A stretch of DNA of 45,146 nt, taken from positions 1-45,146 of the forward strand of contig CACYZW010000032.1 of the NCBI GenBank assembly GCA_902778995.1, read 5' to 3'. Below the pieces are notes generated by a model. It worked only from the letters and a program-made list of their open reading frames with translations. It was not told the origin of the DNA and did no database searches. The translations under genes and the position numbers were made by a program. Below are positions 1-44,280 of this stretch, piece after piece (position 1 is the stretch's first letter; every line of letters begins with the position of its first letter). This stretch comes from an uncultured Eubacteriales bacterium (lineage in GTDB: Bacteria; Bacillota; Clostridia; Christensenellales; Aristaeellaceae).

Positions 1-41
1 TTTACCTTCGGAGCCCTGTTGAGGGGGAATGTTGTCATTCC

Positions 42-116
42 CTATGCTGATTTAAATTCGTGACTTTGCTTTTGCAGATTGTGCGGTGTTTCCTTAAGCC
101 AATTCCAAACTTTCAT
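42..116 (-). CDS. possible 24-residue small ORF
   Basis: An ATG at 116 is preceded by GAGGTAAC-type Shine-Dalgarno sequence and, about 30 bases further upstream, by an extended -10-like TGGTATACT. It encodes a 24-residue peptide ending in TAG. It lies downstream of, and on the same strand as, the radical SAM gene, and is followed by a small palindrome (GGGAATG..CATTCCC, 25-42). No family is recognisable. It may be a real small peptide gene or chance; only the initiation signals support it. Confidence 0.22.
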   Translation of the reverse strand: MKVWNWLKETPHNLQKQSHEFKSA

Positions 117-186
117 AGTGTTACCTCGCATTCAAAACTCAGAGTATACCATTGCTGGCGAGCATTTTTCTATATCTAATATCACG

Positions 187-1881
187 TTAGTCTTTTATAT
201 CGTCCTCCATCAGCGCAAAAGCATCATCAAAACTAATTTGGTTTTCTAGCACCTTATTCTTTTTTGAAGATTGTTGAGTTCCTTTCTTCAAAAAATAGTA
301 AGGGATTATCATAGAAAACTTCTTGGGGATAATGGTATTCCTCAACTCAGCGATTGGAAGAGAAACCAAATCCATTAGTTCTTCTTTATCTTCTTTGCTG
401 AGTTCAGAATAAAGTGCCTTCCATGCGTTTGTTTCTCCACTATCTTCATAGTATTTTCTAAACATTATCATGTCGCGAGGCATTGCAAGTATAATTCTGA
501 ATTCTTCTTCATTTTTACCAAATGCTTTATAGAAGAAATCTGAACCTGCTGCTACAACACCTTTGGTAACATGGAGTATGGCAGAAATTGCCTGAAGAGA
601 TTTTCTTTTCCATTCTTTTCCCACATACAGCCTGTCAGTCCTATAGATAGGGGCAAATCGCATGGGAAATGAGAATATTGTTATGCCAAGTTCTTGATTT
701 AATTCAATATTGATTTCCAAACGCCTGTAAAGATCTTCTGGTTTATCATTGAAGTTAAAAAGAATATAATTTGATAGTTCAGTAACACCATGCTCAAATG
801 CGAGGTGGACAGCATCTCTATACACTTTTTCATAAGCAATATCGTCAAACGCAATTCGCAATGGGCGAATTGCCAGTCGTGCTAACTGTGCCATTGTTTG
901 GTTGTTTATTTTACGACCATCAACACCTTGATTGAAGTCAATATATCTATTACTTGACGCTTTACTTTTATACTTGTCGATAATTGGCCTTAATGCCTCT
1001 TCATTGTCAAGCATATATTGTGCATAGTCTTCAACGCCTTCTGAATCAATTACAATTTGCAGAAAGGTGTCTAATAAATCTTTTGACTTGATTCTTTTTT
1101 TGAATCCAGACAAGTATTTTTGTAGTCTGACATCCAAGAAGCTGGCTCTATCGCCATTGTGATACCTCATTAAGACAATATCAAAATCGCTTGGTTTTAC
1201 AAATTTCGCACCACGATAGAAACCCGCTTCACATAGCGAATCCACGATTTCAGTCAGGTTTGGGGCATTTAGAATATTATTATCCAACATCAAAAGGTTT
1301 TGCTTTGGCCCAAACCTCCTATCAATTTCATGAATCTGTTCTACGATATTATTTGTTACAATGAATTCTGGTTCCAGTATAGGGACAGCACAGAACTTAC
1401 AATGGTTAGGACATCCTCTTGATGTATATGCAAAGTAATTATCTCCCGCAGGATACTTGTATGATACTTGCTCTAAAATATCATAATCCAAAGGTAGCGT
1501 ATCAATATTGATATCATTATCATCTCCAACCACAGACGTGTCTGTAAATAAGCCAATAAGAATATTCCTGTCTTCTAACCCTGTGGCCTCCTTAACCTTA
1601 TCAGGCATAAGTGAAGACATGATACCACCAACATAAATATCGTTGATGTCATCAACTAACAGCTTATAGTAATTTATAGTTTCAACTGTAATATCAAAAT
1701 CAAAGGTAAATAGCGTGGTGACATATATGCGGTCCCACGCCAATCCTTCTTTTGTTCTATCTATTCCCTTTACAAAGGTAACCTCATCCCCCATCATTTT
1801 ATGGTATTGGCTAATTTTCATCAATCCCATAGGAGGATATTTATTCTTGTAAGCTGGCTCTACAAGTAAAATACGTCTCAT
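187..1881 (-). CDS. radical SAM protein of a putative defence operon
   Basis: A 564-residue protein. The sequence GCPNHCKFCAVP supplies the CxxxCxxC triad (C157, C161, C164) that binds the 4Fe-4S cluster and S-adenosylmethionine in the radical SAM superfamily. The first ~150 residues resemble the Rossmann-like, cobalamin-binding-type leader found in many radical SAM enzymes (ILLVEPAYKNKYPPMGL), but the canonical DxHxxG B12 motif is not evident. The C-terminal half has the barrel-like segments FNQGVDGR and LFNFNDKPEDLYRR. Substrate unknown. Its start overlaps the stop of the Hsp90-like gene by 4 nt, so it is translationally coupled as the last gene of xre-nurA-herA-hsp90-rSAM. It could modify a protein, a nucleotide or DNA; the neighbours suggest a nucleic-acid-related role. 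The codon composition is AT-rich compared with the core. Confidence 0.85.
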   Translation of the reverse strand: MRRILLVEPAYKNKYPPMGLMKISQYHKMMGDEVTFVKGIDRTKEGLAWDRIYVTTLFTFDFDITVETINYYKLLVDDINDIYVGGIMSSLMPDKVKEATGLEDRNILIGLFTDTSVVGDDNDINIDTLPLDYDILEQVSYKYPAGDNYFAYTSRGCPNHCKFCAVPILEPEFIVTNNIVEQIHEIDRRFGPKQNLLMLDNNILNAPNLTEIVDSLCEAGFYRGAKFVKPSDFDIVLMRYHNGDRASFLDVRLQKYLSGFKKRIKSKDLLDTFLQIVIDSEGVEDYAQYMLDNEEALRPIIDKYKSKASSNRYIDFNQGVDGRKINNQTMAQLARLAIRPLRIAFDDIAYEKVYRDAVHLAFEHGVTELSNYILFNFNDKPEDLYRRLEINIELNQELGITIFSFPMRFAPIYRTDRLYVGKEWKRKSLQAISAILHVTKGVVAAGSDFFYKAFGKNEEEFRIILAMPRDMIMFRKYYEDSGETNAWKALYSELSKEDKEELMDLVSLPIAELRNTIIPKKFSMIIPYYFLKKGTQQSSKKNKVLENQISFDDAFALMEDDIKD

Positions 1882-3470
1882 TTTTTCTTCGCTCTCAACT
1901 CTTGGATTATTGCGGCTCTTAGTTTCTCTGCTGTCTCATGTTCTTCAGCAAAGAAAGAATCAACTACCTCAATAATCCGCTGGTATAATTTCCTTTCATC
2001 TCGACTATAACTTGAAGGCAAATCTCCCTTTGTTGCATAATCAGCCTTTACGATTTTCGTTGATATATTAACTGCGTCCTGTGTAGCCTTTTTCGTTTTA
2101 TCCAACACATCTTGGGCTTTTTCCTTGCGTTCCGCTTCCAGAACACCACTCTCTATAGCTTTGCGAAGCGTAGCTTCATCGCGTTTGATTTGCTTCTGGA
2201 CCTTTTCCAGTTCATTTTTCAGTTCTTCTTTCTTCTGCTCTGAAGAAATAGCGCCATTGTCAATTCGTTCCTCTATGTCCCGCTGGCGAGCAATTCCTTC
2301 TTCAATTCTTCGCATGGCAGAAGAAGCATTTGATGTTCCCCTGCGATATTTTCTGTTGATTTCTCCCGCCCACTGAGACAAATATTGTCTCATTTCTGCC
2401 AGTGCTGCATTAGGTTCAAAATCATCCCGCTGTGAGTTTGGGATGATATTTTCATCTAACACATGTATCTCGCCTGCAAACATCTTATTTGCGGTATAAC
2501 CTTCAGAGGGAAAGTAGCTATCAAAAGTCTGTGCATCGCCTATTAGAATATTGTTTTTCCGCAGACGAATTCCACGCAAATTCTCATCCTTTATCTGGCC
2601 TGAAAAATCTGTAATCGCAAGCCACCCTATATACATGGGCCTTCCATCAGAGTATTCCTGATAGAGTAGTTCTACTTCCTTTATATATTCGTTCTCCTTC
2701 TTTCGCCGCAAACCTACAGAAGTATCAAGGCGGCGCGTATACAGTTTATAAACTGGCATTCTTCTTTTGCCAAAGAATATCTTGTATGTTGATATCTGTT
2801 GTTCCTTTTCAGCGAAAAAATCCTTTATCCTTTTTGCCTGTCTAAACTTCTGGGCATCAAAATCAACAGGAGCGACAATTGAAAGATATTGCTTTATCTC
2901 ATTTTCGTCAATTAGGACTTCTGCTCCCTCAATAATACCCTTCATTACAACTTCAAAATAGTGTGTTCTGCTGTCTTCTACAGTTCTTTGTTCAATCGTT
3001 GTTATTGCCTCGATGACACCAACAATGTCTGGAATTTCATTGTTGCTGGGAGAAACCAGTTCACGCATTCTCTTACAATCCCAGCGCATAACTGATTCAA
3101 CTGCTTCATTTGCAGCCTTTGAAATAAAATACAGGTTATCACAATAAGCTAAGCCTCCAAGTCTACCTATGCCACGAAAACCCCTGTCTTCAGCATAATC
3201 CTTGGATGAGTTGCCAATATCTGACAAAGTGTTCCATACTTTTTCTACAGCAATACCTGTTCCATTGTCACGAATCCTGATTTCCCTTTTTTCTGGGGTA
3301 ATCGTGATATGGATTTCCGCATCATCTTTACTGATAAGACCATCCCGCATTGCATGATCAATGGAATCTGTGGCATTCTGAATATACTCGCGGTAAATTG
3401 CACGCGGGTCAGCATACATGCCAGTTGAAAGAGATTCCAATGTGAACTTTCCAATGACAATATCGCTCAC
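1878..3470 (-). CDS. Hsp90-like (GHKL) ATPase
   Basis: A 530-residue protein with the N-terminal ATP-lid fold of the GHKL family: REYIQNATDSID supplies the catalytic Glu28 and Mg-binding Asn32, DNGTGI at 68-73 is the DxGxG motif, and GFRGIGR at 97-103 is the lid motif. Residues ~385-470 are highly charged and probably coiled coil. The size and absence of an Hsp90 client domain separate it from HtpG; similar stand-alone GHKL ATPases occur in bacterial defence loci. It overlaps both neighbours by 4 nt, so stoichiometric expression with the HerA-like and radical SAM proteins is likely. Inference: it is an ATP-driven conformational switch or clamp that senses or scaffolds the HerA/NurA nuclease machine. 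Confidence 0.85.
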   Translation of the reverse strand: MSDIVIGKFTLESLSTGMYADPRAIYREYIQNATDSIDHAMRDGLISKDDAEIHITITPEKREIRIRDNGTGIAVEKVWNTLSDIGNSSKDYAEDRGFRGIGRLGGLAYCDNLYFISKAANEAVESVMRWDCKRMRELVSPSNNEIPDIVGVIEAITTIEQRTVEDSRTHYFEVVMKGIIEGAEVLIDENEIKQYLSIVAPVDFDAQKFRQAKRIKDFFAEKEQQISTYKIFFGKRRMPVYKLYTRRLDTSVGLRRKKENEYIKEVELLYQEYSDGRPMYIGWLAITDFSGQIKDENLRGIRLRKNNILIGDAQTFDSYFPSEGYTANKMFAGEIHVLDENIIPNSQRDDFEPNAALAEMRQYLSQWAGEINRKYRRGTSNASSAMRRIEEGIARQRDIEERIDNGAISSEQKKEELKNELEKVQKQIKRDEATLRKAIESGVLEAERKEKAQDVLDKTKKATQDAVNISTKIVKADYATKGDLPSSYSRDERKLYQRIIEVVDSFFAEEHETAEKLRAAIIQELRAKKK

Positions 3471-5134
3471 TTCTTACTTCCTCCCTGATGGTAAGATGGG
3501 AATGGGAATGTTACCTTTAGCAATGTCTTAAACACTGGATGATGAATAATCAAATCACCTTTGCGCAATCGCGTCATCATGTTTGCATACACATTGGGAA
3601 TAAACTTATAATCTGGACGCGATACCTCTATTGCGTTTGTACGTCCATATATATTTGTTCCACAATTCCCTTTTATTCTTTCATGAACAGCACTTCTAAA
3701 CTGTTCTGCTGAAAAGAGAATAACGCCTTCAGAGCGTCCCCTCTCAGTTATATCAAGAAGGTTGGAAAGCAAGGGTGAGTTTTTATTTGAGGTTGTTGGT
3801 GCGTATTTGTTCAATTCATCTACGAACACAATTACCTTTTGCGGGATTTCACGCTTTGTGGTTCTTGCATTTTCATCATAATCACCATGCTTCAAACCAT
3901 ACACAGACTGAATAACATCGCCAAACACCAAACACTGTAGTTGTTCATTCAATCCAGCGATGTCAACAACAAAGACTTGGCCGCCCTCTATGTTATTGAT
4001 AGCATCAGAAATATGGGTCTGATGGCGTTCTTTAGACCCTGACAAAGAATTCTGAAAAATCCTGTCATTTACAGAATTATTGATTAAACGACTGAAACGA
4101 CGCCAAGACTGTACTTGGATTTCCTTATTATCTGTTTTTCCAGTCTTATTCACATATTGACGTAATTTGTCTTTGAAATCATCCCAACTTTCAACATCTT
4201 TGAATTCAGAAGACGTTTCAATATAATTAAGAATAGATTCAATGGTCCAGTTAGGGTCATCGACATTGGAAAAAAGCATGGATAGCTTGCTGACATCATG
4301 TTCAAAAGTATAAACATAATTGTCAGCTAATCCTTCTGAAAACTGTTCTGTAATATCGTCATCAGGGATTGCAGAATTGGCATATTGTTTTTCTTTCCTG
4401 CCACTATAAGGATAGAAATAATGTACCGCTTCAAAAGGAGCGCAGGGAACGTTTAATGATTCCCACTCTTCCTTCTGTGCTTCTGTGATATACTGGTTGG
4501 GACGATGGAGATGTAACAAGTCATCGCCCTTAACATTCATTATTATAATTGCCACATCGCCCTTCAATTTGTGCTGAATCGCTTTAAGCAAAAACATGAT
4601 ATAACTTGTTTTTGTGGCAAGACCAGATATACCAGATACATTTGCGTGTGCGCCTTCAGGTCCTACAATGAAATCACCATTGAACATGATAGGAACAGTT
4701 ACGTCATTTGATGCTTTCATTAGACCTGCGGGAATTGCTGACTCTTCTGGTATGGCATCAAGGCCAAGAGCGACCTTTATATCATCCTCATTGGTTGTAT
4801 AAACAGCAGCACCATCAGGAAGAGGCATGAAGTTTTCTTTTGTATTATGAATCACTGAACATTTGGCGTAAGACAACCCCAGCTTCTTTGTCATGGGTTT
4901 CGCTTCTGCATCGCCAAAATCAGATGAAACATAATTACTGATGTGACTTGGACTATCAGTAATATGAAGAATGTCCTGTACAACGCCATAGGTTTCAGAA
5001 TCATCTATGGCGTTATGGACGCGAACGATATCGAAAGGGCTAAGAATAGTGCTATCTGTCAGCCAGAAAGAGAAATCATCACATGTAGATGGGTTTTTCT
5101 CTGTCGCAGATACTTTGCCAATAATCTTGTTCAT
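3467..5134 (-). CDS. HerA/FtsK-like hexameric ATPase (DUF87-type)
   Basis: A 555-residue P-loop ATPase. An N-terminal beta-barrel-like region (residues 1-60; HerA HAS-type, inferred) is followed by a Walker A variant GISGLATKTS (168-177), where the usual GxxGxGKS is replaced by an ATKTS ending, and a clear Walker B IVFVDEL (435-441, D439/E440). The segment ERGRSEGVILFSAEQF resembles the region after Walker B in HerA/FtsK pumps. HerA proteins are DNA-translocating hexamers that work with NurA nucleases, and a NurA-like gene lies 11 nt upstream. The stop overlaps the Hsp90-like gene. The long region between the Walker motifs (180-430) is larger than in archaeal HerA and may hold a partner-binding insert. 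The family is fairly certain, the biological substrate is not. Confidence 0.87.
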   Translation of the reverse strand: MNKIIGKVSATEKNPSTCDDFSFWLTDSTILSPFDIVRVHNAIDDSETYGVVQDILHITDSPSHISNYVSSDFGDAEAKPMTKKLGLSYAKCSVIHNTKENFMPLPDGAAVYTTNEDDIKVALGLDAIPEESAIPAGLMKASNDVTVPIMFNGDFIVGPEGAHANVSGISGLATKTSYIMFLLKAIQHKLKGDVAIIIMNVKGDDLLHLHRPNQYITEAQKEEWESLNVPCAPFEAVHYFYPYSGRKEKQYANSAIPDDDITEQFSEGLADNYVYTFEHDVSKLSMLFSNVDDPNWTIESILNYIETSSEFKDVESWDDFKDKLRQYVNKTGKTDNKEIQVQSWRRFSRLINNSVNDRIFQNSLSGSKERHQTHISDAINNIEGGQVFVVDIAGLNEQLQCLVFGDVIQSVYGLKHGDYDENARTTKREIPQKVIVFVDELNKYAPTTSNKNSPLLSNLLDITERGRSEGVILFSAEQFRSAVHERIKGNCGTNIYGRTNAIEVSRPDYKFIPNVYANMMTRLRKGDLIIHHPVFKTLLKVTFPFPSYHQGGSKK

Positions 5135-5145
5135 GATGAATCCCC

Positions 5146-6264
5146 CTAAAAATTCTTCTTAAACTGATTGATAAAAGCCAAATCACCCATAAAGGACGAT
5201 TTTACCATTGTCTCTGTCAGATAGACAGGGTAAAGGTGTGCAGCCCATCGTTCATCCTTACCATGACAGGTTGGAGTGCATTCTTCAAGCAGAGAGCAGG
5301 AAATGTTATCAATCACATCGCTCTCAAATCCGCTTTCAAACTCTTCTTCCCTTGCCATCTTCTCAACTTTGATAATGCCTTGAAGTGGACTGTTGACATG
5401 CGGCTTGGGTCGAATTCGTAAATACCAACATCCAAACACTCGTCCGCGACTGTTTTTTTTATAGAATACTGGCGTTCTCTCAGCATAATCAAGGTTCAAC
5501 AATTGCGATCCTATTTGCTGACCACCCCTTGTTCTTTCAGAAATTGGGAGCATGGGATCAAAAGATTTAGATACACCCACAACATTGTAGAACAAATCTG
5601 CAAAATCCTTCTTCCCTGTATCTTCTTTCAAAAACTGAAGTGGTCCATCCACTATCAGCATTCTATCTGTATCAAGATCGTTTGATCTAACCATCTGGCT
5701 TAGAATGCCAATCTCCATCTCGTGCATTATGCTGTTTGCCTTTGCTATGGCAGCATTCGTTGGCGCAAGGTCCTTCTGGCGATCATATTTATAGGCAATG
5801 ACATCCAGCTGCAAACTTTTTGCCATCGCTGTTTTTAGGATTCGCATACGAAATTCTTCAAAATCATCGTCGTTTATGCGGCTTGTAACCAAAAGCAAAT
5901 TCTTTTGATCAAGGATGTGTTTATGTACTTTCTTGTCATCGCCTCTATATCCACAACCAGCGCGAACCTGTGCAACAACGACAGGAAAAATCTTTGAGTT
6001 CTGTAAGACAATATCACCTATTTTGTAGGTTCGTCTTGACCCATCCATAAAAAAGCAGAAGTTGGACATTCCTTCCCGCACAAAGGACAGCTTTCTCTTC
6101 TGCTTGGTGGTTATACTCTCAAAGGGTGTCCCCATTTCATATTGATCAGGATTATCCTCATCCATGTCTTGATAAGGTTCCTGATAATAATGATCAAGGT
6201 CAAGACTCTCATTTTGATAAAGAGGAATCTTTACCTTTGCGAACATATCCTTCAGAGTGCTCAT
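5146..6264 (-). CDS. NurA-like nuclease
   Basis: A 372-residue protein with NurA-domain hallmarks: FFMDGSRR (D74), a second acidic site LIVDGPLQF (D206), a lysine in VGVSKSFDP (K233), and a C-terminal LYPVYLTETMVKSSF strand. NurA is a Mn-dependent 5'-3' exo/endonuclease acting with HerA in DNA end processing. The ATG at 6264 is chosen because GAGGGGAAA lies just upstream; an upstream in-frame extension to 6387 would overlap the xre gene in another frame and lacks a ribosome binding site. The first ~60 residues, acidic and Tyr-rich, are not typical of archaeal NurA. It is the first nuclease gene of the operon, 34 nt after xre. In bacteria nurA-herA pairs are often found in defence or mobile contexts, which fits the AT-rich surroundings. 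Confidence 0.8.
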   Translation of the reverse strand: MSTLKDMFAKVKIPLYQNESLDLDHYYQEPYQDMDEDNPDQYEMGTPFESITTKQKRKLSFVREGMSNFCFFMDGSRRTYKIGDIVLQNSKIFPVVVAQVRAGCGYRGDDKKVHKHILDQKNLLLVTSRINDDDFEEFRMRILKTAMAKSLQLDVIAYKYDRQKDLAPTNAAIAKANSIMHEMEIGILSQMVRSNDLDTDRMLIVDGPLQFLKEDTGKKDFADLFYNVVGVSKSFDPMLPISERTRGGQQIGSQLLNLDYAERTPVFYKKNSRGRVFGCWYLRIRPKPHVNSPLQGIIKVEKMAREEEFESGFESDVIDNISCSLLEECTPTCHGKDERWAAHLYPVYLTETMVKSSFMGDLAFINQFKKNF

Positions 6265-6298
6265 TTTCTTTTCCCCTCTTTTGTGGCATAACTCAGCA

Positions 6299-6502
6299 TC
6301 AGGAATTGACATGCTCCATGATGTCCCCATAATCCGCTTTGAGCACATCACAGATTCTATCAAGGATGGGCAAGGCGACAACCTCATCCCTTCGCAGCTT
6401 TGTCATAGTGTTGGGAGCGATTGCCGCCGCCCTGCGAAGGTCTGCCGCGCTCATCTTCTTGTCTATCAATAGTTTCCAGAGCTTGTTATAACTGACTGCC
6501 AT
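6299..6502 (-). CDS. Xre/Cro-type HTH regulator (67 aa)
   Basis: A 67-residue single-domain helix-turn-helix protein (MSAADLRRAAAIAPNTMTKL..ILDRICDVLKADYGDIM), of the short Cro/YozG type. A Shine-Dalgarno GGAGG precedes the start by about 8 nt. It is the promoter-proximal gene of the nuclease/ATPase operon and is the obvious candidate autoregulator, controlling the promoter at 6527-6555. Short Xre genes commonly lead defence operons that are toxic when over-expressed. No ligand-binding or protease domain is present, so release from DNA would have to be by titration or by a partner. Confidence 0.85.
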   Translation of the reverse strand: MAVSYNKLWKLLIDKKMSAADLRRAAAIAPNTMTKLRRDEVVALPILDRICDVLKADYGDIMEHVNS

Positions 6503-6526
6503 CTTGTACCTCCATTATTCTGTCTA

Positions 6527-6555
6527 ATTATAGCACGTTTCTTTAACAAACGCAA
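6527..6555 (-). promoter_or_regulatory. sigma-A promoter of the xre-nurA-herA-hsp90-rSAM operon
   Basis: Read on the minus strand: TTGCGT (6555-6550), a 17-bp spacer, then TATAAT (6532-6527), about 25 bp before the xre start. It is flanked by two direct copies of ATTATTCT (plus-strand 6514-6521 and 6559-6566), 45 bp apart, which bracket the promoter and are candidate Xre operators. Confidence 0.75.
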
Positions 6556-6744
6556 CTTATTATTCTCAAGATATTGGGAATTGCTCGCAAATAACGTACC
6601 TAGTCATAAAGCAGTGAGTTTATTTTATCTAACATACTTAAGATCAATAAATTTCTCAGAGTGTAGTCAAATCTATTTTTCGTTTCAGAAGAAAAAACCT
6701 GAATCCCATTCTAATCCAACCACCTATCCGATGGAGGTGAGTGA

Positions 6745-6996
6745 ATGAAACAGTATAACACATTCGCAGAAACAGAAGCCTTGCTTCTAACCGCAATCAA
6801 CATGAAGGGTAACACCGTCAAGGACATAGGAGCCGCAACTGGAATAAAGGCCGATACGCTCTACAAATGGAAAACCACCGAAGCGCATCTATCTCCCGCA
6901 AAGGCAGATGCCCTTCTTTTATACTTCATCCAAAACGAACCCCAGCGGCTTGAACTCGCAGAAACCGTTCTCGCTGCTAAGAATAATACTTTATAA
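6745..6996 (+). CDS. small HTH-like protein (83 aa)
   Basis: An 83-residue protein with a good ribosome binding site (GATGGAGGTGAGTG). The central part (GNTVKDIGAATGIKADTLYKWKTTEAHLSPAKADALLLYF) looks like a helix-turn-helix of the phage or plasmid excisionase/repressor sort, with the recognition helix around TLYKWK. It is divergent from the nuclease operon. It probably co-transcribes with the 96-residue gene that follows 59 nt later. It could be a second regulator of the island; no enzyme domain is seen. Confidence 0.6.
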   Translation: MKQYNTFAETEALLLTAINMKGNTVKDIGAATGIKADTLYKWKTTEAHLSPAKADALLLYFIQNEPQRLELAETVLAAKNNTL

Positions 6997-7055
6997 TAAT
7001 ATTATACTACTTCCATCCTTTCCTTTGATGGGAGGTATCTATAGGAGGAATAAAA

Positions 7056-7346
7056 ATGTCTACTTTTGACGCTTTTAAACAATATCAATCCGAACAGGCG
7101 CGTATCAGGCAGAAGATACGCGATGAAGAAAACCCTTTCCATGCTGCCCACATCCAGGAATTCAATGAAATGATGGACGAAAAGATACGAACGCAGGTTC
7201 CCATGCTGATCCAGCAATATAACGAAAGGCAGAAAGTCAATGTTGACGCCTATTTCAACGGCAAGCCCGCCACAGACGCAAACATCGTCAAAGGAGTGCG
7301 GGATATGGTTGCGAAGGCACTCAAAAGCATTGGAAAACGGAGATAG
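7056..7346 (+). CDS. hypothetical protein (96 aa), helical and charged
   Basis: A 96-residue soluble protein behind a strong Shine-Dalgarno (TAGGAGGAATAAAA). It is rich in Gln, Glu and Lys (QYQSEQARIRQKIRDEENPF..), predicted mostly helical, with no membrane segment or signal peptide. The tail VRDMVAKALKSIGKRR is basic. The family is not recognised; the size and composition resemble small proteins of prophages and integrative elements. It lies between the HTH gene and the WYL regulator. Confidence 0.6.
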   Translation: MSTFDAFKQYQSEQARIRQKIRDEENPFHAAHIQEFNEMMDEKIRTQVPMLIQQYNERQKVNVDAYFNGKPATDANIVKGVRDMVAKALKSIGKRR

Positions 7347-7355
7347 TTCCAGTAA

Positions 7356-7442
7356 AGTTGATGATTGTTCTTCCAGAATTGTAAGAAGTTGTGGTATAAT
7401 CATATCAAGTTGTTTGAAGTTGCAGAGAGTTGTAGGGGGTTA
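7356..7442 (+). promoter_or_regulatory. WYL gene promoter with helically phased AGTTG repeats
   Basis: An extended -10 element TGGTATAAT (TATAAT at 7395-7400) lies 47 bp before the WYL start; no good -35 is seen. The pentamer AGTTG recurs at 7356, 7387, 7408, 7418 and 7428, with AATTG at 7377. Spacings of 21, 10, 21, 10 and 10 bp place all copies on the same DNA face on both sides of the -10. This looks like a cooperative operator, most simply for the WYL protein itself. Confidence 0.6.
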
Positions 7443-7446
7443 CAGC

Positions 7447-8457
7447 ATGTCCAAGAGGCAAAATCAAAAGTTGAAGCTTTTTTATCTGAAGCAGATTCTG
7501 GAGGAATACACCGATGCAGACCATGGAATTACCATGAATCGTATTCAGGAACTTCTGGGTATGCGCGGCGTCGTGGCAGAGCGCAAGAGCATCTATGACG
7601 ATATTGATACCCTCATCAACGATTTTGAAATGGACATCCAGAAACCTTCTGGCCGCGATTTCACCTACAGACTGAACTCCCGAGACTTTGATATCGCAGA
7701 ATTGAAGTTGATTATCGACAGCGTACAGTCTTCCAAATTCCTTTCCGTGAAGAGCTCGCGGGAAATCATCAGGAAGATGGAAAAGCTTTGCAGCAAGCAT
7801 GAGGCATCCCAGCTTCATCGCAAGATCATACTGACAAACCGCGTGAAAAACGAGGAAGACCTGATCAGCAACAACGTTGGGAATATCAATGCCGCCATGG
7901 ACAGCGGCGAACAGATCAGCTTCAAGTATTTCGACTACAACATCCAGAAGCGAAAGACCTATCGAAAGAAAGGCCAATTGTATACAGTCAGCCCCTATGC
8001 GTTGGTATATTCTGATGAAAACTACTATATGCTTGCTTATGCCGAAGAGCATGGTGAAGTGCGGCCGTATCGCGTGGACCGCATGGAAGGCGTGAAAGTG
8101 CTCGCTGGTGTCGTGCGGCAAGGAAAGGAAGTCTTTGACAAAATCGACCTTGCCCAATACCAGAAGTATACCTTCTCCATGTTTGGCGGCAAGGTGGAGC
8201 CTGTGACAATGGTCTTCCAGAACCGCATGATGAATGCTGTTATTGATAGGTTTGGCCGCGATATCATGGTGATGAAGGAGGATGACAACCACTTCCGCAT
8301 TACCGTGAATGTCGCCGTTTCCAACCAGTTTTACGGATGGGTGTTTGGACTTGGAAATATGGTTAGGATTGTTGGTCCTGAGCATGTGGAGCAGGGGATG
8401 AAGGATCTTCTGGAGAGCGTGCATGGGAGGTATGATGATAAAAAAACAGAAGCCTGA
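7447..8457 (+). CDS. WYL-domain transcriptional regulator
   Basis: A 336-residue protein. An N-terminal winged HTH (residues ~5-70, ITMNRIQELLG..SIYDDIDTL) is followed by a WYL domain around ISFKYFDYN..SPYALVYSDENYYMLAY and RPYRVDRMEGV, and a C-terminal WCX-type extension ending near 330. WYL regulators sense nucleic-acid or nucleotide ligands and frequently control defence islands (BrxR/CapW type), although many Clostridia also have housekeeping members. The start at 7447 is chosen for homology and because upstream sequence holds the promoter; an in-frame opening further 5' overlaps the preceding gene. The GC content is intermediate between island and core. Confidence 0.88.
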   Translation: MSKRQNQKLKLFYLKQILEEYTDADHGITMNRIQELLGMRGVVAERKSIYDDIDTLINDFEMDIQKPSGRDFTYRLNSRDFDIAELKLIIDSVQSSKFLSVKSSREIIRKMEKLCSKHEASQLHRKIILTNRVKNEEDLISNNVGNINAAMDSGEQISFKYFDYNIQKRKTYRKKGQLYTVSPYALVYSDENYYMLAYAEEHGEVRPYRVDRMEGVKVLAGVVRQGKEVFDKIDLAQYQKYTFSMFGGKVEPVTMVFQNRMMNAVIDRFGRDIMVMKEDDNHFRITVNVAVSNQFYGWVFGLGNMVRIVGPEHVEQGMKDLLESVHGRYDDKKTEA

Positions 8458-8527
8458 GCAGCCCTTTCAACCGCACAGACTCAGTATTATATTCCATGGC
8501 TTTCAAATCTTAATTGTGTAAAATAGA

Positions 8528-8640
<113 letters not shown>

Positions 8641-8646
8641 CTCCTC

Positions 8647-8683
8647 AAAATCGTGCATTTCGTACAGAGATGCACGATTTTTC
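8647..8683 (+). terminator. rho-independent terminator after the tRNA-like gene
   Basis: A perfect 12-bp stem AAAATCGTGCAT / ATGCACGATTTT with an 11-nt loop, ending in a T run. It directly follows the tRNA-like gene by 6 nt, so the unit looks transcribed. Confidence 0.85.
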
Positions 8684-8833
8684 TATGGTATTTGCACAAG
8701 AATCATTCAGCTTTCACTTAACCGCGATTCAATCAAAATCGCAATCGGCCGATTCACGCACAGAATTTGCACAAAACCAGTTGGAAAAATGGCCGAAAAC
8801 CCTTGCGGCATTTTTGTTGTCGCGGGGATGGAC

Positions 8834-8877
8834 ATATCGTTCGGAAGTATTGAGCACAAAGGGACCGTCTCTGTGTG
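8834..8877 (+). repeat. REP-like repeat, copy A
   Basis: A ~44-bp repeat containing AAGTATTGAGCACAAA followed by GGACCGTC and a GTGTG end. It is nearly identical to 10255-10298, with a shorter inverted copy at 10147-10175. The GGGACCGTC..TTTGTG type of element is widespread in Bacillota and often associated with RAYT/IS200-like transposases; none is encoded here. Confidence 0.65.
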
Positions 8878-8902
8878 TTTTGCATTAATCGTAAAATGAA
8901 GA

Positions 8903-8944
8903 GGCTGCCTCAAATTGACCTTTTCATGTCATTTTGAGACAGCC
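8903..8944. terminator. palindrome/possible terminator 3' of the secreted-protein gene
   Basis: GGCTGCCTCAAA (8903-8914) pairs with TTTGAGACAGCC (8933-8944) with one mismatch. On the plus strand a short T run follows (CTGATTTTT). It lies 23 nt past the stop of the minus-strand secreted-protein gene. GGCTGTCTCAAA is also a common transposon-end motif, so it could be a MITE relic. Confidence 0.45.
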
Positions 8945-8966
8945 CCTGATTTTTGGAGAGAGAGGG

Positions 8967-9698
8967 TTATTTCCAGGAGAAGGCGATATATTCACCCTTT
9001 TGGGCCAAATCGGACAGATAGGCGCGTTTGATTTCCAGATAGTAGGTGCCCTTGGGCTGCATGCCCTGAGTCACGCATACGTTTCCACGGTCTGAACAGC
9101 TGAGTTCATTCAGGTTCCTGTCGTAGAGGGTAAATCCATATTGATCAATGCCATTAAATGTGATGGATTGTGTCTTCTGTAGTTTGATCCTGTACCAACG
9201 ATAGTAATTATTGCTCTTGGTCTGGGCGATTTCCACCTTCTTCCCGGCCTTGACAGTGACGGCCTTGCCCATGCAGTAGTTGGGCTTGTTGACGGTCACG
9301 GCTCTTTTGGTGCTGAACTTCACCTTGCCACTTTCTTTGTTGTCATACATGCTGATGTAATAGGTGCCAGAATAGAGGACGTATCCCAACGTTCCGGAAG
9401 AGGTATCGTATATTCCACTGGAAGCGATAGTATCATCACAGGATTTATCACGGTTTATGGAGAGATAGGCAAAATTATCGTTTGTCTTAATGTTTTTCCA
9501 GTTGATGCTGACAATGGTATCACCGGTTACTTTCAACTTATAGATCGTCGTGTTTCCGGAATAATCTTGCAGTCTGTACCATTGATTGAGTTTTAGGGTT
9601 TCAACCTTGTAAGAATCTGCCAGTCCGGCGGCGGGAAGGGTGGCGAGCAGTAACAGAACGGTCAGCATCAGTGCAAGGAGTTTTCGGGTACGGTTCAT
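8967..9698 (-). CDS. secreted protein, beta-sandwich (PPC-like) repeats
   Basis: A 243-residue protein with a clear Sec signal peptide (basic MNRTRK, hydrophobic LLALMLTVLLLLATLPAAGLA, cleavage near ADS/28). The mature part consists of two similar all-beta segments (YYISMYDNKESGKVKF and YYLEIKRAYLSDLAQKGEYIAFSW endings), reminiscent of pre-peptidase C-terminal domains that bind carbohydrate or act as adhesion modules. No catalytic residues or anchoring motif are visible, so it is probably released or loosely surface-associated. It is monocistronic with its own sigma-A promoter and the Shine-Dalgarno AAAGGAGG. Confidence 0.75.
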   Translation of the reverse strand: MNRTRKLLALMLTVLLLLATLPAAGLADSYKVETLKLNQWYRLQDYSGNTTIYKLKVTGDTIVSINWKNIKTNDNFAYLSINRDKSCDDTIASSGIYDTSSGTLGYVLYSGTYYISMYDNKESGKVKFSTKRAVTVNKPNYCMGKAVTVKAGKKVEIAQTKSNNYYRWYRIKLQKTQSITFNGIDQYGFTLYDRNLNELSCSDRGNVCVTQGMQPKGTYYLEIKRAYLSDLAQKGEYIAFSWK

Positions 9699-9728
9699 AT
9701 GGAAGCCTCCTTTTTATAATATATATGC

Positions 9729-9757
9729 ATTATAACATGGAAAATTCAAATAGTCAA
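9729..9757 (-). promoter_or_regulatory. sigma-A promoter of the secreted-protein gene
   Basis: Minus-strand TTGACT (9757-9752), a 17-bp spacer, then TATAAT (9734-9729), 31 bp before the start codon. Close to consensus. Confidence 0.8.
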
Positions 9758-9831
9758 CTATATTAATATCGAAATCAACCAACCTAATATTCACTGCCTG
9801 CATACTTTTTGTGGAATGGAGTGTGAATTCA

Positions 9832-10119
9832 GTGGATTTTGGAAATAGGCTCAAGGCTCTCAGGACGAGTGCCGGGTTGACCCAGGCACAGCTGGGAAAT
9901 CAGGTTGGGGTGACCAAATCAGTGATATCGTACTATGAATTGCAGGAGCGCAGTCCGTCCCCGGACGTGTTAATCAAGCTGTCGCAAATCTTTCATGTCA
10001 GCACGGATGAATTGCTCGGAGTTTCAAAAGGGGAATCGGTTGATGTGACCGGCTTGAGGCAGGAGGATGTACTTTTGATTCGAAATCTTGTGGAGCGACT
10101 TCGCGGGGAGGGCCATTGA
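9832..10119 (+). CDS. Xre-family HTH repressor (95 aa)
   Basis: A classic Cro/C1 HTH in the first 65 residues (GNRLKALRTSAGLTQAQLGNQVGVTKSVISYYELQERSP..LSQIFHVSTDELLG), followed by a short helical tail that probably dimerises. The GTG at 9832 is preferred because TGGAG lies about 10 nt upstream; a GTG at 9811 would add seven unrelated residues and lacks spacing for a ribosome binding site. It is divergent from the secreted-protein gene and may control it. Chromosomal regulators of this length are common in Clostridia; nothing ties it to a phage. Confidence 0.85.
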   Translation: MDFGNRLKALRTSAGLTQAQLGNQVGVTKSVISYYELQERSPSPDVLIKLSQIFHVSTDELLGVSKGESVDVTGLRQEDVLLIRNLVERLRGEGH

Positions 10120-10146
10120 AAGAAGGTAACGAGGGGCGATTCCTAA

Positions 10147-10175
10147 CACACAGTGACGGTCCTTTTGTGTTGACG
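10147..10175 (-). repeat. REP-like repeat, copy B (inverted)
   Basis: An inverted, shorter copy of the 8834 and 10255 repeats; on the minus strand it reads ..AACACAAAAGGACCGTC..GTGTG. With copy C it forms an inverted pair, a BIME-like arrangement. Confidence 0.55.
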
Positions 10176-10199
10176 TGAAAGGGCAAGACATGATACAAT
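10170..10199 (+). promoter_or_regulatory. promoter for the 53-residue ORF
   Basis: TTGACG (10170-10175), an 18-bp spacer and TACAAT (10194-10199). It overlaps the end of REP copy B by a few bases and points towards the small ORF at 10319. Confidence 0.5.
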
Positions 10200-10254
10200 C
10201 TGGTCGGTGATCGCAATGGCGCGAAAGGCAGGCCGCGATCAGGGGTATCCTTTG

Positions 10255-10298
10255 GTATCGTGCGGAAGTATTGAGCACAAAAGGACCGTCCCCGTGAG
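10255..10298 (+). repeat. REP-like repeat, copy C
   Basis: Nearly identical over ~44 bp to the repeat at 8834-8877 (shared CGGAAGTATTGAGCACAAA, then RGGACCGTC). Confidence 0.65.
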
Positions 10299-10318
10299 TT
10301 TTTAAAGGAGGCAGCGAA

Positions 10319-10480
10319 ATGAGAAACGAAGAGAAAGAACCGTCAACGGAAGAAGAAGTCTGCAAACCCCTGACGGATGAGGAATTCAAAGAATATCAGG
10401 AAAAAGACGCGCGTACAACCAAGAAAGTGATGGGGGTTTTCTCAGCTGTCTGGGATGCGATTACCACGTTTTTCAATTAA
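10319..10480 (+). CDS. small acidic/amphipathic protein (53 aa)
   Basis: An ATG at 10319 lies 7 nt after a strong AAAGGAGG. The 53-residue product starts with a very acidic half (MRNEEKEPSTEEEV..) and ends in a short amphipathic, aromatic helix (VMGVFSAVWDAITTFFN). A promoter-like element lies 120 bp upstream and a terminator 116 bp downstream. No family is recognised; the C-terminal helix could associate with membrane or with a partner protein. Confidence 0.5.
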   Translation: MRNEEKEPSTEEEVCKPLTDEEFKEYQEKDARTTKKVMGVFSAVWDAITTFFN

Positions 10481-10595
10481 AGAAATAATAAATAATACAA
10501 AACCCGGAGTCAAAACCATGGCGACAGATTCAGGTATGGCGGGGTGCATCGGTTGAATTGGGGCGCATGACAGCCCTGATGTCGGACAGGACACG

Positions 10596-10627
10596 ATCCC
10601 AGGTCGAAAGGCCTGGGATACTTTTTG
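10596..10627 (+). terminator. rho-independent terminator
   Basis: ATCCCAGG (10596-10603) and CCTGGGAT (10612-10619) form an 8-bp stem followed by ACTTTTT. It probably ends the 53-residue ORF transcript. Confidence 0.75.
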
Positions 10628-10652
10628 GTTCTTCACGTTTTCCTGTGGGTTT

Positions 10653-10790
10653 TTGGGGAACTCCCTCAGTCATGCTGCGCATGCCAGCTCCCTCAGGGAG
10701 GGAGCCTTCAGGCGGCGAAGGCGGTCATCCTGCCTCCCTCACCGAGGGAGGTGGCCGATCACAGAGAGGCCGGAGGGCGTTTTCATTCCA
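10653..10790. repeat. dispersed palindromic intergenic repeat
   Basis: A GC-rich series of hairpins: GCTCCCTC/GAGGGAGC near 10685-10705, CCTCCCTC-acc-GAGGGAGG near 10734-10752, and GGCC..GGCC. The text GAGGGAGGTGGCC and GGCGGTCATCC are familiar from interspersed elements of gut Clostridia; GGCGGTCATCC recurs at 25070-25080. The rest of the 10481-10955 gap shows only the terminator at 10596 and no gene. Confidence 0.55.
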
Positions 10791-10955
10791 CTACTTTCTG
10801 TGAAGCGCCTGTTTTTTGCCCTGCTTATAGGACGATAGAGGATTTGTGGAGGTTATGTCATGCCAGCCAGGCGTCCTGCCACCGGATGGGATGGCCGATA
10901 TCAACGGCATTATTGCCCTCCCCTTCGGGCCTTTCCCCGGATACAACAGGCCCTT

Positions 10956-12644
10956 TCAGTCAAGGCCCTCCGCCGCCGGTTTCCCGTCGCCTCCCAAGGG
11001 CGTCGCCTCTCCAAGGGACGCGCGCACAAATCCTGTAAACAGGGGGTGCGGCCTGTTGGGGCGGCTCTTGAACTCGGGATGGAACTGCACGCCGATGAAG
11101 AAGCGCTCGCCGGGGATTTCCACGGTCTCCACCAGCCGCCCGTCGGGGGAGAGGCCGGAGAGGGTGAGGCCGGCGGCCTGCAGCGCGTCGCGGTAGGCGT
11201 TGTTGAACTCATAGCGGTGGCGGTGGCGCTCGCTGATCTGCAGCGCATCGTAGCAATGGGCGATGGCCGTGCCCCGTTCCAGCCTGCAGGGATAACTGCC
11301 CAGCCGCAGCGTGCCGCCCTTGTCGATCTCGTCGTTCTGATCGGCCATGAAATGAATGACCTGATGCGGGCTGTTCTCGTCGAACTCGTGGGAATTTGCC
11401 TCGGCGAGGCCCGCGACGTCGCGCGCGTACTCGATCACCGCGATCTGCATGCCCAGGCAGATGCCGAAGTAGGGCACATGGTGTTCGCGGGCATACTTTG
11501 CCGCCAGGATCATGCCCTCGATGCCGCGGTTGCCGAAGCCGCCGGGGACGATCACGCCGTCTACCGCCCCGCAGGATCGCGCCTGCGGGCCCGCTTTGCC
11601 TGAAGCCCCGGACAGTATGGCCTCATAGTTCTCCGCGCTCAGCGCTTCCGAATCGATCCACTCGATCTCCACCCGCGCGTCCAGCGCGTAGCCCGCGTGG
11701 CGCAGCGCCTCGGCTACGGACAGATAGGCGTCGTGCAGCTGCACATACTTGCCGACGAGGCCGATTTTCACGGCTCTGGACTGGTGGTGGATGCGCTTCA
11801 CCAGCGCCCGCCATTCCGCCAGGTCCGGCGCCGGCGCGTCGATGCGCAGCTCCCGGCAGGCGATGCCGGACAGGTTCGCCTGCTCCAGCATCAGCGGCGC
11901 TTCGTAGAGGTTCGGCAGCGTGCGGTTTTCGATCACGCAGTCGGGCTTGACGTTGCAGAAGTGGGCGATCTTGGAGAAGATGCTCCCGTCGGTGATTGGC
12001 TCGTCCACCCGCAGCACGATGATGTTCGGCGCGATGCCCATGCCCTGGAGCTCCTTCACGGAGTGCTGGGTGGGCTTCGACTTGTGTTCGCCGCTGGCCT
12101 TCAGGTACGGCACCAGCGTCACGTGGACGTACAGCGCGTTCTCACGGCCCACCTCCAGCCCCACCTGGCGGATGGCCTCGATGAAGGGCTGGGATTCGAT
12201 GTCGCCGATGGTGCCGCCGATCTCGGTGATCACCACGTCGGCGTCGGTCTTCTTGCCCACCTGATAGATAAACGTCTTGATCTCGTCGGTGATGTGGGGG
12301 ATGGTCTGGACGGTGCTTCCCAGATACCCGCCCCGCCGCTCCCGCTGAATGACGTTGGAATAGACCTTTCCCGTGGTCAGGTTCGAGAACTTGTTCAGGT
12401 CCTCGTCGATGAAGCGCTCGTAGTGGCCCAGGTCCAGGTCGGTCTCCGCGCCGTCCTCGGTGACGTATACCTCGCCGTGCTGGTAGGGGCTCATGGTGCC
12501 GGGGTCCACGTTGATGTAGGGGTCCAGCTTCTGGGCGGCCACCACCAGGCCCCGGGCCTTCAGGAGCCGCCCCAGGGACGCCGCCGTGATGCCCTTGCCC
12601 AGGCCGGACACCACGCCGCCGGTGACAAAGATGTATTTCGTCAA
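10956..12644 (-). CDS. pyrG: CTP synthase (glutamine-hydrolysing)
   Basis: A 562-residue PyrG: an ammonia-ligase domain with P-loop [10 protein letters not shown] at the N-terminus and the signature [19 protein letters not shown], then a class I glutaminase domain (FGICLGMQ with nucleophile Cys; VQFHPEF). It amidates UTP to CTP with glutamine. The family is usually 535-545 residues; the excess is mostly a ~15-residue insertion just before [10 protein letters not shown], encoded by a palindrome (11568-11589). The start codon is TTG at 12644 (no in-frame ATG or GTG fits), preceded by AAAGGGTG. The gene follows gltD by 6 nt and ends the glt operon, which ties pyrimidine amidation to glutamine supply. 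Confidence 0.96.
11568..11589. repeat. in-frame palindromic insertion in pyrG
   Basis: CCCGCAGG-atcgcg-CCTGCGGG, an 8-bp perfect inverted repeat inside a ~45-nt in-frame segment (about 11565-11615). It encodes residues of the type [11 protein letters not shown] that are absent from the typical PyrG alignment between the ligase and glutaminase domains. Confidence 0.6.
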
Positions 12645-43463: not shown

Positions 43464-44216
43464 TCACATTGTCCGAAAACGGTCATAGATATCGGAAAAG
43501 TCAGCGGGAGGAGCCGATTCGGAAGGAGAATCATTCTCTCCCATTTCGTTAGCAGGCTTTGGAACAAATGGACGTGTTTTCAATCCACCACCAAAAAAAT
43601 ACTTATACAGTTTTGAGGATTCCATTTCTTTAATTAGAGTTTGAGGAGATACCTCGTCTACTATTGTAAAATCAAAACTCTGTATGTACTCTTTTAGATC
43701 ATTATCTAGTTTTACTCCATCACTGGTTATCTTATTCTTTTTTCTGCAATATTTATCCCAGTTACTAGTAAGGTATGCATTAATACGTTCTGGATGCTCT
43801 ATAAGAGTTCTTAAGCTATCACCAATACCATTACTTCCAACAATATAGTACTTCTCAGGAACTCGATATGTTCCTTTCCATGTATAATAACATAGCTTTC
43901 CGAATTCGACACAATATATAGCAGGACTTAAAGGTTTATTACAGTGTTTACATTGATATATATCAATCTTGTCGGTAGGAGAGGCATAATAGGCCACAAT
44001 ATCTCTTCCTGCGTCTTTTGAACCGCCTACTGTGCATACATTAGCATAATTTTTCACCTTTAAAACCCAAGCTGCCGTTAAGTCTTCGAACTCAGTATCA
44101 GACATTGTTCTTATTCGATCATAGGGGGAGATCGATTCATCAAAAATACGATTGCATTTACCTGATAGAGAAGGCATCTCTAAGGCTCTAAGCGGAAAAG
44201 AATTATCCTTTGACAT
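43464..44216 (-). CDS. Mrr-type restriction-endonuclease-fold protein
   Basis: A 250-residue AT-rich gene product. The N-terminal half shows the Mrr-like PD-(D/E)xK pattern: EFEDLTAAWV (E43/E45), GGSKDAGRDIVAY (D72), and DIYQCKHC with the Q-x-K triad (Q88, K90). Two CxxC-like pairs are partial. The C-terminal part (~130-250) is charged, has no recognised domain and ends in a low-complexity stretch (ENDSPSESAPP). The start at 44216 is chosen because GAGGAG lies 7 nt upstream. It is a likely anti-foreign-DNA nuclease or the effector of a multi-component system; no methylase is adjacent. Composition suggests transfer. Confidence 0.78.
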   Translation of the reverse strand: MSKDNSFPLRALEMPSLSGKCNRIFDESISPYDRIRTMSDTEFEDLTAAWVLKVKNYANVCTVGGSKDAGRDIVAYYASPTDKIDIYQCKHCNKPLSPAIYCVEFGKLCYYTWKGTYRVPEKYYIVGSNGIGDSLRTLIEHPERINAYLTSNWDKYCRKKNKITSDGVKLDNDLKEYIQSFDFTIVDEVSPQTLIKEMESSKLYKYFFGGGLKTRPFVPKPANEMGENDSPSESAPPADFSDIYDRFRTM

Positions 44217-44280
44217 CGAAACGCTCCTCATATGTAATTCAACTAGAATAGCAAGTTCATCGCCAGAATCGCCTATACCT

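Follow-up and report, generated by a model that had tools for sequence, protein, structure and literature searches.

At the left end of a 45,146-base contig from an uncultured Eubacteriales bacterium (CACYZW010000032.1; the whole contig, one of 239 in assembly GCA_902778995.1, is the window of this report) lies an operon of five minus-strand open reading frames (ORFs), termed here xre, NurA, HerA, GHKL and rSAM. The small gene at the operon head encodes an Xre/Cro-type repressor (6299-6502; Pfam HTH_26, E 5.7e-18). It is followed by a NurA-type nuclease of 372 amino acids (aa; 5146-6264, the start taken being the ATG after the overlap with xre), a HerA-type DNA translocase of 555 aa (3467-5134), an Hsp90-like ATPase of 530 aa with a GTG start (GHKL; 1878-3470) and a radical SAM enzyme of 564 aa (rSAM; 187-1881). 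Gaps of 34 nucleotides (nt) and 11 nt separate xre from NurA and NurA from HerA, and 4-nt overlaps join HerA to GHKL (3467-3470) and GHKL to rSAM (1878-1881); these ORF coordinates agree with a sequence-only reading of the window, which had described five same-strand genes with 4-nt overlaps between the last three. That reading was also right about an AT-rich composition and about WYL and HTH neighbours: the GC content is 0.37-0.46 at 1-10 kb against 0.53-0.70 at 10-43 kb, and a WYL gene (7459-8457) and HTH genes adjoin the operon. Its claim of one promoter is supported neither way, promoter-like sites numbering 20 against 20.3 in shuffled sequences; the stretch between xre and a divergent HTH gene (6503-6744) is the presumed operator/promoter. 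The 3' end of rSAM lies 187 bases from the contig end, and the side beyond rSAM is therefore unseen.

The four genes NurA, HerA, GHKL and rSAM form a genuine, widespread unit with signs of horizontal spread. The first relative to emerge was L005, a human faecal contig labelled as phage, followed by the genomes G016, G200, G288 and G454. A search of genome contigs with an alignment of ten rSAMs gave at least 504 rSAM relatives among 590 candidate stretches, of which the best 80, picked by likeness to the window rSAM, were analysed; because of this choice, the finding of the NurA-HerA-GHKL-rSAM set, in the same order and on the same strand, in 53/80 loci is no frequency for all relatives. Ranked by NCBI from their record titles, the full sets come from 10 named phyla, with some unranked records besides. 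Recurrence of the ordered set excludes a chance grouping and bears out the suggestion that the four genes co-occur across unrelated genomes. The other 27 loci comprise HerA-GHKL-rSAM (4), GHKL-rSAM (13), rSAM alone (8), NurA-HerA-rSAM (1) and a NurA-rSAM remnant (1); in 11 of them the locus starts no more than 300 bases from the end of a contig, and in 16 it does not. Six of the 53 loci, namely L040, L062 (close to the edge of its contig), L063, L071, L089 and L091, have a split or shortened core gene, which was counted as present, and the profiles used for typing were partly built from the first loci, which they match by construction. Together with L005, L010, L023, L024 and L028, the 53 loci make up a set of 58 four-gene loci that leaves out the window.

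The spacing of the genes is also conserved. Median gaps are 6 nt for NurA-HerA, 3 nt for HerA-GHKL and -4 nt for GHKL-rSAM, and gaps of at most 20 nt are found in 49/53, 49/53 and 48/53 loci, respectively, with a gap of exactly -4 nt between GHKL and rSAM in 24. Pairwise identities of the four proteins covary (Spearman 0.52-0.91 over 53 sets including the window, relatedness uncorrected). A fifth constant gene is ruled out, as the largest recurrent family among 563 flanking ORFs occurs in 6/57 loci.

By homology and kept active-site residues, HerA and NurA belong to the type of HerA-NurA pair seen in PDB entry 7f6d, which we take to be the pair of Deinococcus radiodurans (the molecule name of the entry is HerA). 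Chain 7f6d_B is the only PDB match of the window HerA (phmmer E 2e-39). The window protein has a variant Walker A, GISGLATKTS, and the Walker B DELNK, and the Walker A stretch GISGxATKTS is common to 7f6d. A HerA profile matches 7f6d at 3.6e-132 and the best other solved HerA at 1.6e-10. For NurA the single-sequence match to the 7f6d NurA is marginal (E 0.0062), and a profile reaches 7f6d_H at 1.6e-20 and TM1739 at 3.5e-5; no Pfam model matched HerA or NurA at 0.1. Conserved residues were counted over aligned rows of at least 300 aa for NurA, 480 aa for HerA, 430 aa for GHKL and 400 aa for rSAM, the window being one row. In HerA, K175, T176, D439 and E440 are invariant in 59/59 rows, and in NurA, D74, E184, D206, H343 and Y345 are invariant in 58/58, the first three being presumably the catalytic acidic residues, by comparison with archaeal NurA.

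The GHKL protein matches Pfam HATPase_c_3 (E 2.4e-9), and its AlphaFold2 model (pLDDT 90.5) has an N-terminal ATPase and a middle region like those of TRAP1/HtpG, with a long helical tail past about residue 350. Foldseek places it with TRAP1 (5tvu, E 1.2e-15, TMq 0.46; 4z1i_A, 365 residues, TMt 0.65). As modelled, the protein has the N-terminal ATPase and the middle domain of Hsp90/HtpG chaperones, and where a C-terminal dimerisation domain like that of Hsp90 was looked for, the model shows the long helices of the tail; residues E28, N32, D68, G72, G97, G100 and G102 are invariant in 68/68 rows. A second GHKL gene stands between the first one and rSAM in L054 (7346-9004) and L077 (4637-6289), and L108 has a GHKL of this second type (7328-8992) with a 333-aa gene ahead of rSAM.

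The rSAM protein is a member of the radical SAM superfamily by its CxxxCxxC motif and predicted fold, its Pfam Radical_SAM match (E 3.7e-6, 27.7 bits) lying slightly below the cut-off of 29.5. The AlphaFold2 model (pLDDT 91.9) combines a Rossmann-like N-terminal part with a radical SAM domain, and C157, C161 and C164 of the motif are invariant in 86/86 rows. The nearest folds by Foldseek are MgmA, MiaB/RimO and AprD4, all with low TM values (TMq 0.35-0.47), and a profile of 49 rSAMs found no close relative in the PDB (best E 0.69). Cobalamin radical SAM enzymes carry a B12-binding domain with a DxHxxG motif, and MiaB/RimO methylthiotransferases have three further Cys for an auxiliary cluster. 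A cobalamin enzyme is ruled out for rSAM, with no Pfam B12-binding match at 0.1 and no His kept at 90% in the N-terminal domain; a methylthiotransferase is ruled out in spite of the likeness in fold, as no further Cys is found among the columns conserved at 90% or more.

The operon lies in an accessory low-GC island (1-11010, no strand), delimited by GC content and by the alignment with genus relatives. A pyrG match was found in 12 such relatives, 7 of which were fetched beyond pyrG, some of the stretches stopping early (L202 at 3.3 kb). The seven align with the window in this region at 82-86%, and every alignment ends at window position 11,011-11,028. The first 11 kb of the window show no blastn homology in the stretches fetched beside pyrG from 7/7 genus relatives, and six neighbour proteins of the island have no tblastn match in the same stretches. 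NurA is present in 2/200 genomes of the family, the window's own and G016, and the four-gene set in 4/398 genomes of the phylum (the window, G200, G288 and G454). The scarcity of NurA and the missing island rule out core DNA, in keeping with the sequence-only reading, under which the operon should not be constant in close relatives. G016 belongs to the window's genus; in the HerA tree, rooted at the midpoint, its HerA and that of the window lie in opposite halves, and for this reason the two copies within one genus seem to have separate histories. Cross-phylum sisters in this tree include Thioploca/Caldilineaceae (starred branch, 100), Syntrophomonadaceae/Planctomycetaceae (starred, 99) and a Thermoguttaceae HerA beside that of a Clostridia bin (starred, 98). 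All trees were quick ones computed without a mixture model, and several cross-phylum rows are contigs of metagenome-assembled genomes that are possibly misbinned; as a repeated pattern, the HerA tree suggests transfer of the cassette between phyla.

Relatives of the cassette show that its two halves can have other partners. Searching the 398 phylum genomes with the window HerA gave 12 matches, 4 with the cassette and 8 (L135-L142) without it. The latter hold NurA-HerA abutting methyltransferase genes (METHYLTRANSFERASES); they have no GHKL match and this rSAM family at most faintly (L136, 1.2e-8). A type IIG-like restriction-methyltransferase adjoins in 8/8, as a protein of 1083-1111 aa in seven and split in L142, and the two that were checked (L136 and L139) match PADLOC at E 0. 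Five of the eight (L137-L141) also carry an N4/N6 methylase of 409-431 aa. With phmmer seeds, a methyltransferase was found within 5 kb in 8/8 of these sister loci vs 2/58 four-gene loci, where it is Dam-like and non-adjacent (1.0 and 2.9 kb off), and vs 1/15 control stretches from elsewhere in the same phylum, the single control case being by motif only. The phmmer count of 2/58 replaces the 0/58 of a motif heuristic that misses HsdM, YhdJ and ParB-MTase. No methyltransferase was recognised among ten scanned proteins of the window. In the HerA tree, the methyltransferase-linked (seven rows) and rSAM-linked HerAs form two clades (starred, 99 each), which argues for one exchange and not many; HerAs of the phage MCV1 and those linked to SbcCD fall outside both. 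In genome G372, a NurA-HerA locus of the methyltransferase type (L139) coexists with a Pbe-rSAM one (L025).

The second kind of swap keeps rSAM and changes the motor and nuclease. Pbe genes are followed by rSAM and GHKL in L026 and L027 and by rSAM alone in L025; PbeC is recognised by PADLOC in all three loci, and PbeA by PADLOC in L026 and by likeness in L025 and L027. PbeC occurs in 22/398 phylum genomes, and 21 loci were read (G522, with internal stops, was left out): 3 have a close rSAM and 3 more a divergent one. The divergent rSAM genes, of about 400 aa, lie by PbeA/PbeC at 13733-14965 in L173, 6800-8056 in L177 and 11308-12483 in L181. A weak motif heuristic flagged no methyltransferase in the 21 Pbe loci, with or without rSAM.

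Elsewhere, rSAM neighbours proteins that are DndB-like (L038 and L044 by Pfam, L042 by a one-sequence profile) or ParB-like as named by eye (L037, L041, L044). Among the first 48 of 80 fetched IMG/VR loci, 2 showed no rSAM ORF and 14 had a GHKL hit, which lies next to rSAM in 13; the exception, L226, has a weak hit about 1.2 kb from rSAM on the other strand. The four-gene set is present in 3 of these 14 GHKL-bearing viral loci, and relatives of the ParB-like proteins of L044/L037 in 8. In L210, L217, L220 and L221, two ParB-like genes enclose or adjoin the gene of a helicase-like protein (by eye, 450-493 aa); a small gene intervenes in L210 and L220, and the helicase-like/ParB-like set is on the other strand in L217. 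GHKL is also found with rSAM where HerA/NurA are missing, which ties it to rSAM no less closely than to HerA/NurA. Mapping the HerA-NurA label onto the rSAM tree takes 8 changes, of which starred branches force 5; two Geobacter rSAMs with different neighbours, HerA-NurA in L040 and ParB-like/DndB in L044, are sisters (starred, 100).

A second recurrent set, of ParB-like proteins with rSAM and GHKL, can be delineated in L044 (4266-11614) and in L209, L210, L211, L214, L217, L219, L220 and L221. It includes a helicase-like gene in L044, L210, L217, L220 and L221, and sometimes DndB; no GHKL was seen in L044, and the ParB-like genes are on the other strand in L211, L214 and L217.

None of the four proteins leads to a named defence system. 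In PADLOC 2023, rSAM and NurA match no family at E 1, HerA has a single match, mad8 (1e-5), that is partial in length, GHKL has JetC (0.011) as its sole match, and no PADLOC-2023 system matched the four proteins, which rules out a known system of that collection. We found no description of the four-gene combination among the papers listed or read, a collection with few subscription papers and no bioRxiv preprints, and a name later than PADLOC 2023 is possible; within these bounds, nothing contradicts the sequence-only reading, which knew of no named system with all four genes. One listed paper, on DHH proteins of D. radiodurans (PMC11229311), contains NurA, HerA and radical SAM together. HerA-nuclease machines and restriction systems are known; what PADLOC-2023 and the literature searched do not describe is a HerA-NurA pair whose conserved partners are a radical SAM enzyme and an Hsp90-like ATPase.

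Several known systems share part of the plan. SIR2-HerA and DUF4297-HerA join a HerA-type motor to an effector enzyme against phage, as the cassette pairs HerA with an enzyme; their effector is different, and to our knowledge they have no rSAM or GHKL. We likewise know of no rSAM or GHKL partner of the D. radiodurans HerA-NurA, whose HerA is of the window family, down to the variant Walker A, and whose NurA is homologous by profile. Phage thymidine hypermodification pathways, which employ a radical SAM isomerase on DNA bases beside ParB-like enzymes, are not known to include HerA-NurA. PbeABCD, or CxC-ABC-ATPase-DndE, is like the cassette a DNA motor and nuclease set, and its PbeC accompanies an rSAM relative in L025-L027. 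It differs in that a helicase-HKD nuclease (PbeA), an ABC ATPase (PbeC) and DndE replace HerA-NurA (PMC6459918, PMC10853773). The window operon has no Pbe match, and PbeC was not found in G000 at a limit of 1e-40. In the main text of PMC10853773, Hsp90, GHKL and NurA do not appear and 'radical SAM' is used solely of DndC; the portion of PMC6459918 at hand has no 'radical SAM' (Hsp90 and GHKL were not searched for there). SIR2-HerA and DUF4297-HerA are both named in PMC12977600.

The observations on which an interpretation can build are the fixed composition and order of the cassette, its intact active sites, the folds modelled by AlphaFold2, the signs of spread and the partner swaps. We consider it probable that the cassette has a role against foreign DNA. 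That it might be a mobile, self-contained, restriction-like system against such DNA is our preferred reading, at slightly short of an even chance. HerA as a hexamer and NurA as a dimer would form a motor-nuclease that, judging by the family, reels in duplex DNA and cuts both strands. GHKL would work with rSAM as an Hsp90-type (N+M) clamp powered by ATP, and rSAM would place a covalent mark, likeliest on DNA, via a 5'-deoxyadenosyl radical, distinguishing self from non-self. Unmarked DNA would be destroyed by HerA-NurA, and Xre would hold the window operon silent; of the loci L001-L028, blastp showed a relative of xre in L005 and L010 (with L003, the short locus of the latter) and in no other. 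We infer complex formation, DNA as the target, the self/non-self use and the repression by xre.

In classical restriction systems, the modification half defines and marks self. The pair rSAM-GHKL would fill the slot that DNA methyltransferases hold in the sister HerA-NurA operons. The constancy of rSAM (mostly with GHKL), the variability of the motor and nuclease and the methyltransferases at that place in the sister clade speak for rSAM-GHKL being the half that marks or selects, an assignment that could be correct but to which we give a little less than even weight. The methyltransferase swap also favours, indirectly, the suggestion of the sequence-only reading that rSAM makes a modification or signal. 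A mark that sits on DNA itself is a more tentative proposal. More doubtful still is the generalisation that rSAM-GHKL is a 'radical marking' core that has teamed up with three or more unrelated motor/nuclease sets (HerA-NurA, Pbe and helicase/ParB-like), which would make it a new restriction-modification class. On the side of the nuclease, the T. kodakarensis HerA-NurA cleaves both DNA strands, and the authors of that work propose that it acts against viruses (PMC12977600).

A number of points weigh against the restriction-like reading. The single exchange on the HerA tree means that 8/8 vs 2/58 does not represent 66 independent points. Another rSAM is present in 2/8 methyltransferase loci (L136 checked, L135 by eye), and rSAM therefore need not replace a methylase. 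Among the 18 further Pbe loci, 0 have a close rSAM and 3 a divergent one. Some label changes in the rSAM tree may reflect loss or an unseen neighbour (L101 has GHKL only; L047 is at a contig edge). The name ParB-like was given by eye: Pfam gave no match for the protein of L037 and the two of L044, and a faint GmrSD_N for that of L041. The rSAM protein is acidic overall (73 K+R, 86 D+E). The tdtA operon of Thermus, the operon known for the layout of the sister loci, is needed for DNA donation and not for defence (PMC5365140).

The flanks of the cassette also lend this reading no clear support. The sample was 144 flank proteins from 20 loci, the 22 selected from Bacillota or the phylum of the window less L024 and L089, which yielded no protein. 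The controls were 114 proteins from 15 stretches (20 requested), each taken from contig C1 of a listed genome at one set position. Comparing 25 of 52 flank families with 25 of 46 control families, we see no clear enrichment of defence genes around the cassette. PADLOC matches in the flanks are to type IV restriction (3 members), PbeA (2), mad3 (2) and one each of the HEC and PDC candidates; those in the controls are 24 Cas models and DpdF, one CRISPR locus happening to be included. Of 10 flank proteins picked out, three, belonging to 2 loci, have matches among type IV restriction enzymes; in L059 there is one such protein on each side of the cassette. Pfam finds transposases, SLFN_AlbA_2 and AbiEii-like AAA proteins amid plain housekeeping genes in the 144 flank proteins.

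The sequence-only reading had proposed that rSAM makes a modification or signal and that GHKL gates the HerA/NurA machine. Spelled out, rSAM would modify one of the proteins or make a small molecule and GHKL would hold HerA-NurA inactive until infection is sensed, with no mark on DNA. We regard this as the strongest of the alternatives and still as unlikely. The modelled Hsp90-like fold of GHKL speaks for it, such folds being typical of ATP-switched clamps; Pfam recognises no DNA-binding domain in rSAM or GHKL, and the neighbours of GHKL-rSAM are several gene sets unrelated to each other, as expected of a sensor that they have in common. A sensor and gate would explain the swaps nearly as well as a marking pair. 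They would account less readily for the methyltransferases at that place in the sister HerA-NurA operons and for the DndB-like proteins (in Pfam, DNA-sulfur modification-associated) that adjoin rSAM in L038 and L044. Two further alternatives correspond to activities of the nearest relatives that have been studied. In one, which we think quite improbable, the cassette serves accessory processing of DNA ends, rSAM reversing a lesion like spore photoproduct lyase, GHKL acting like MutL and HerA-NurA resecting. The sole PDB match of the window HerA, 7f6d, fits this, as do other relatives that stand with SbcD/SbcC-like genes (L006 and L008; L009 by layout). In PMC12977600, the Deinococcus HerA-NurA figures as a machine predicted to resect DNA ends, a difference from the role preferred here for the cassette. 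Housekeeping repair would sit poorly with the patchy distribution (2/200 family and 4/398 phylum genomes), the island location and the signs of cross-phylum transfer, and the 50 Foldseek rows for rSAM include no enzyme of the spore photoproduct lyase type.

The other would make the cassette an engine of DNA export like TdtA-NurA on the Thermus element ICETh1, with rSAM and GHKL taking the transfer-starting part of the restriction enzyme. The tdtA operon there reads Tth111II (type IIG, 1106 aa), NurA (377 aa), TdtA/HerA and an N4/N6 methylase (410 aa), and nurA and tth111II mutants donate orders of magnitude less DNA (PMC5365140, PMC7767461). The order type IIG enzyme, NurA, HerA, N4/N6 methylase in L137-L141 of the sister clade is the tdtA layout as described in PMC5365140. 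By that description, the operon also resembles the cassette in its adjacent, same-strand NurA then HerA on a low-GC accessory element, and differs in having two methyltransferase-type genes in place of GHKL and rSAM; the likeness is one of described layout, the TdtA sequence being uncompared. The cassette itself does not show the flanking type IIG enzyme and N4/N6 methylase of tdtA, with a methyltransferase within 5 kb in only 2/58 four-gene loci. No constant integrase accompanies it (the 144 flank proteins, in 25 of 155 families, include 2 of Phage_int_SAM_3 and 4 of DDE_Tnp_1), a recombinase-like family named by eye is found in just 3/57 loci, and the cassette is common to phyla with very different envelopes. 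Donation is, in our judgement, marginally less probable even than repair. Least probable of all is that phages and plasmids use the cassette as an asset for their own DNA metabolism or for modifying their own DNA against host defences. NurA-HerA with rSAM in Marinitoga camini virus 1 would suit such a use, as would the viral loci, where 3 of the first 48 of 80 hold all four genes and 13 have GHKL and rSAM side by side; viral contig labels can include proviruses and misassignments, and the flank families of the 20 chromosomal-type loci (25 of 155) are mostly not phage-specific.

If rSAM does mark DNA, the restriction-like reading would add a chemistry to restriction-modification: self-DNA would be marked by radical chemistry and an Hsp90-like clamp, as against methyltransferases, phosphorothioation or deazaguanine. 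Should rSAM make no DNA mark, the cassette would show an Hsp90-like ATPase and a radical enzyme controlling a DNA-degrading motor. Being common (at least 504 rSAM relatives) and present in 10 named phyla, the cassette may affect phage infection or gene transfer widely.

Some minor observations concern relatives and neighbours of these genes. In Marinitoga camini virus 1 (L004, 9677-10759), the 'hypothetical' gene UF08_54 is an rSAM relative on the other strand by NurA-HerA; single-protein scans of viruses with HerA and with GHKL confirmed nothing. On the plasmids L006, L008 and L009, HerA is followed by genes annotated as SbcD and SbcC or alike. A NurA-sized gene lies ahead of HerA in L006 and L009, and the L008 locus adjoins TIGR02680, TIGR02678 and DUF2397 genes, which we take to be Wadjet-like. 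The different rSAM of L136 (14505-16025) has a B12-binding match below the cut-off and is accompanied by a DUF3800 gene, and that of L135 (1927-3537) is alike by eye. Proteins of about 1000 aa with matches to the RNA polymerase alpha-CTD and/or sigma-70 region 4, and with weak PglW or MzaA hits, are encoded directly downstream of rSAM in L080 (11949-14852) and upstream of PbeA in L026 (532-4002). A 254-272-aa protein with the motif F[IVL]D[IV]LG, possibly cyclase-like by eye and with no Pfam match, is encoded just ahead of GHKL-rSAM in L043 (7676-8494), L048 (7678-8442) and L049 (7739-8542); L049 further encodes a protein that matches N6_N4 methylase, and one of its genes looks terminase-like by eye. 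Contig 15 of G454 (L024, position 1-98) stops, like the window, about 100-190 bases past the rSAM stop, perhaps from a repeat there. At the right contig end of the window (43-45 kb), a second low-GC stretch holds a minus-strand ORF of 255 aa (43464-44231), whose stretch GGSKDAGRDIVAY...QCKH resembles by eye a Mrr-type PD-(D/E)XK nuclease.

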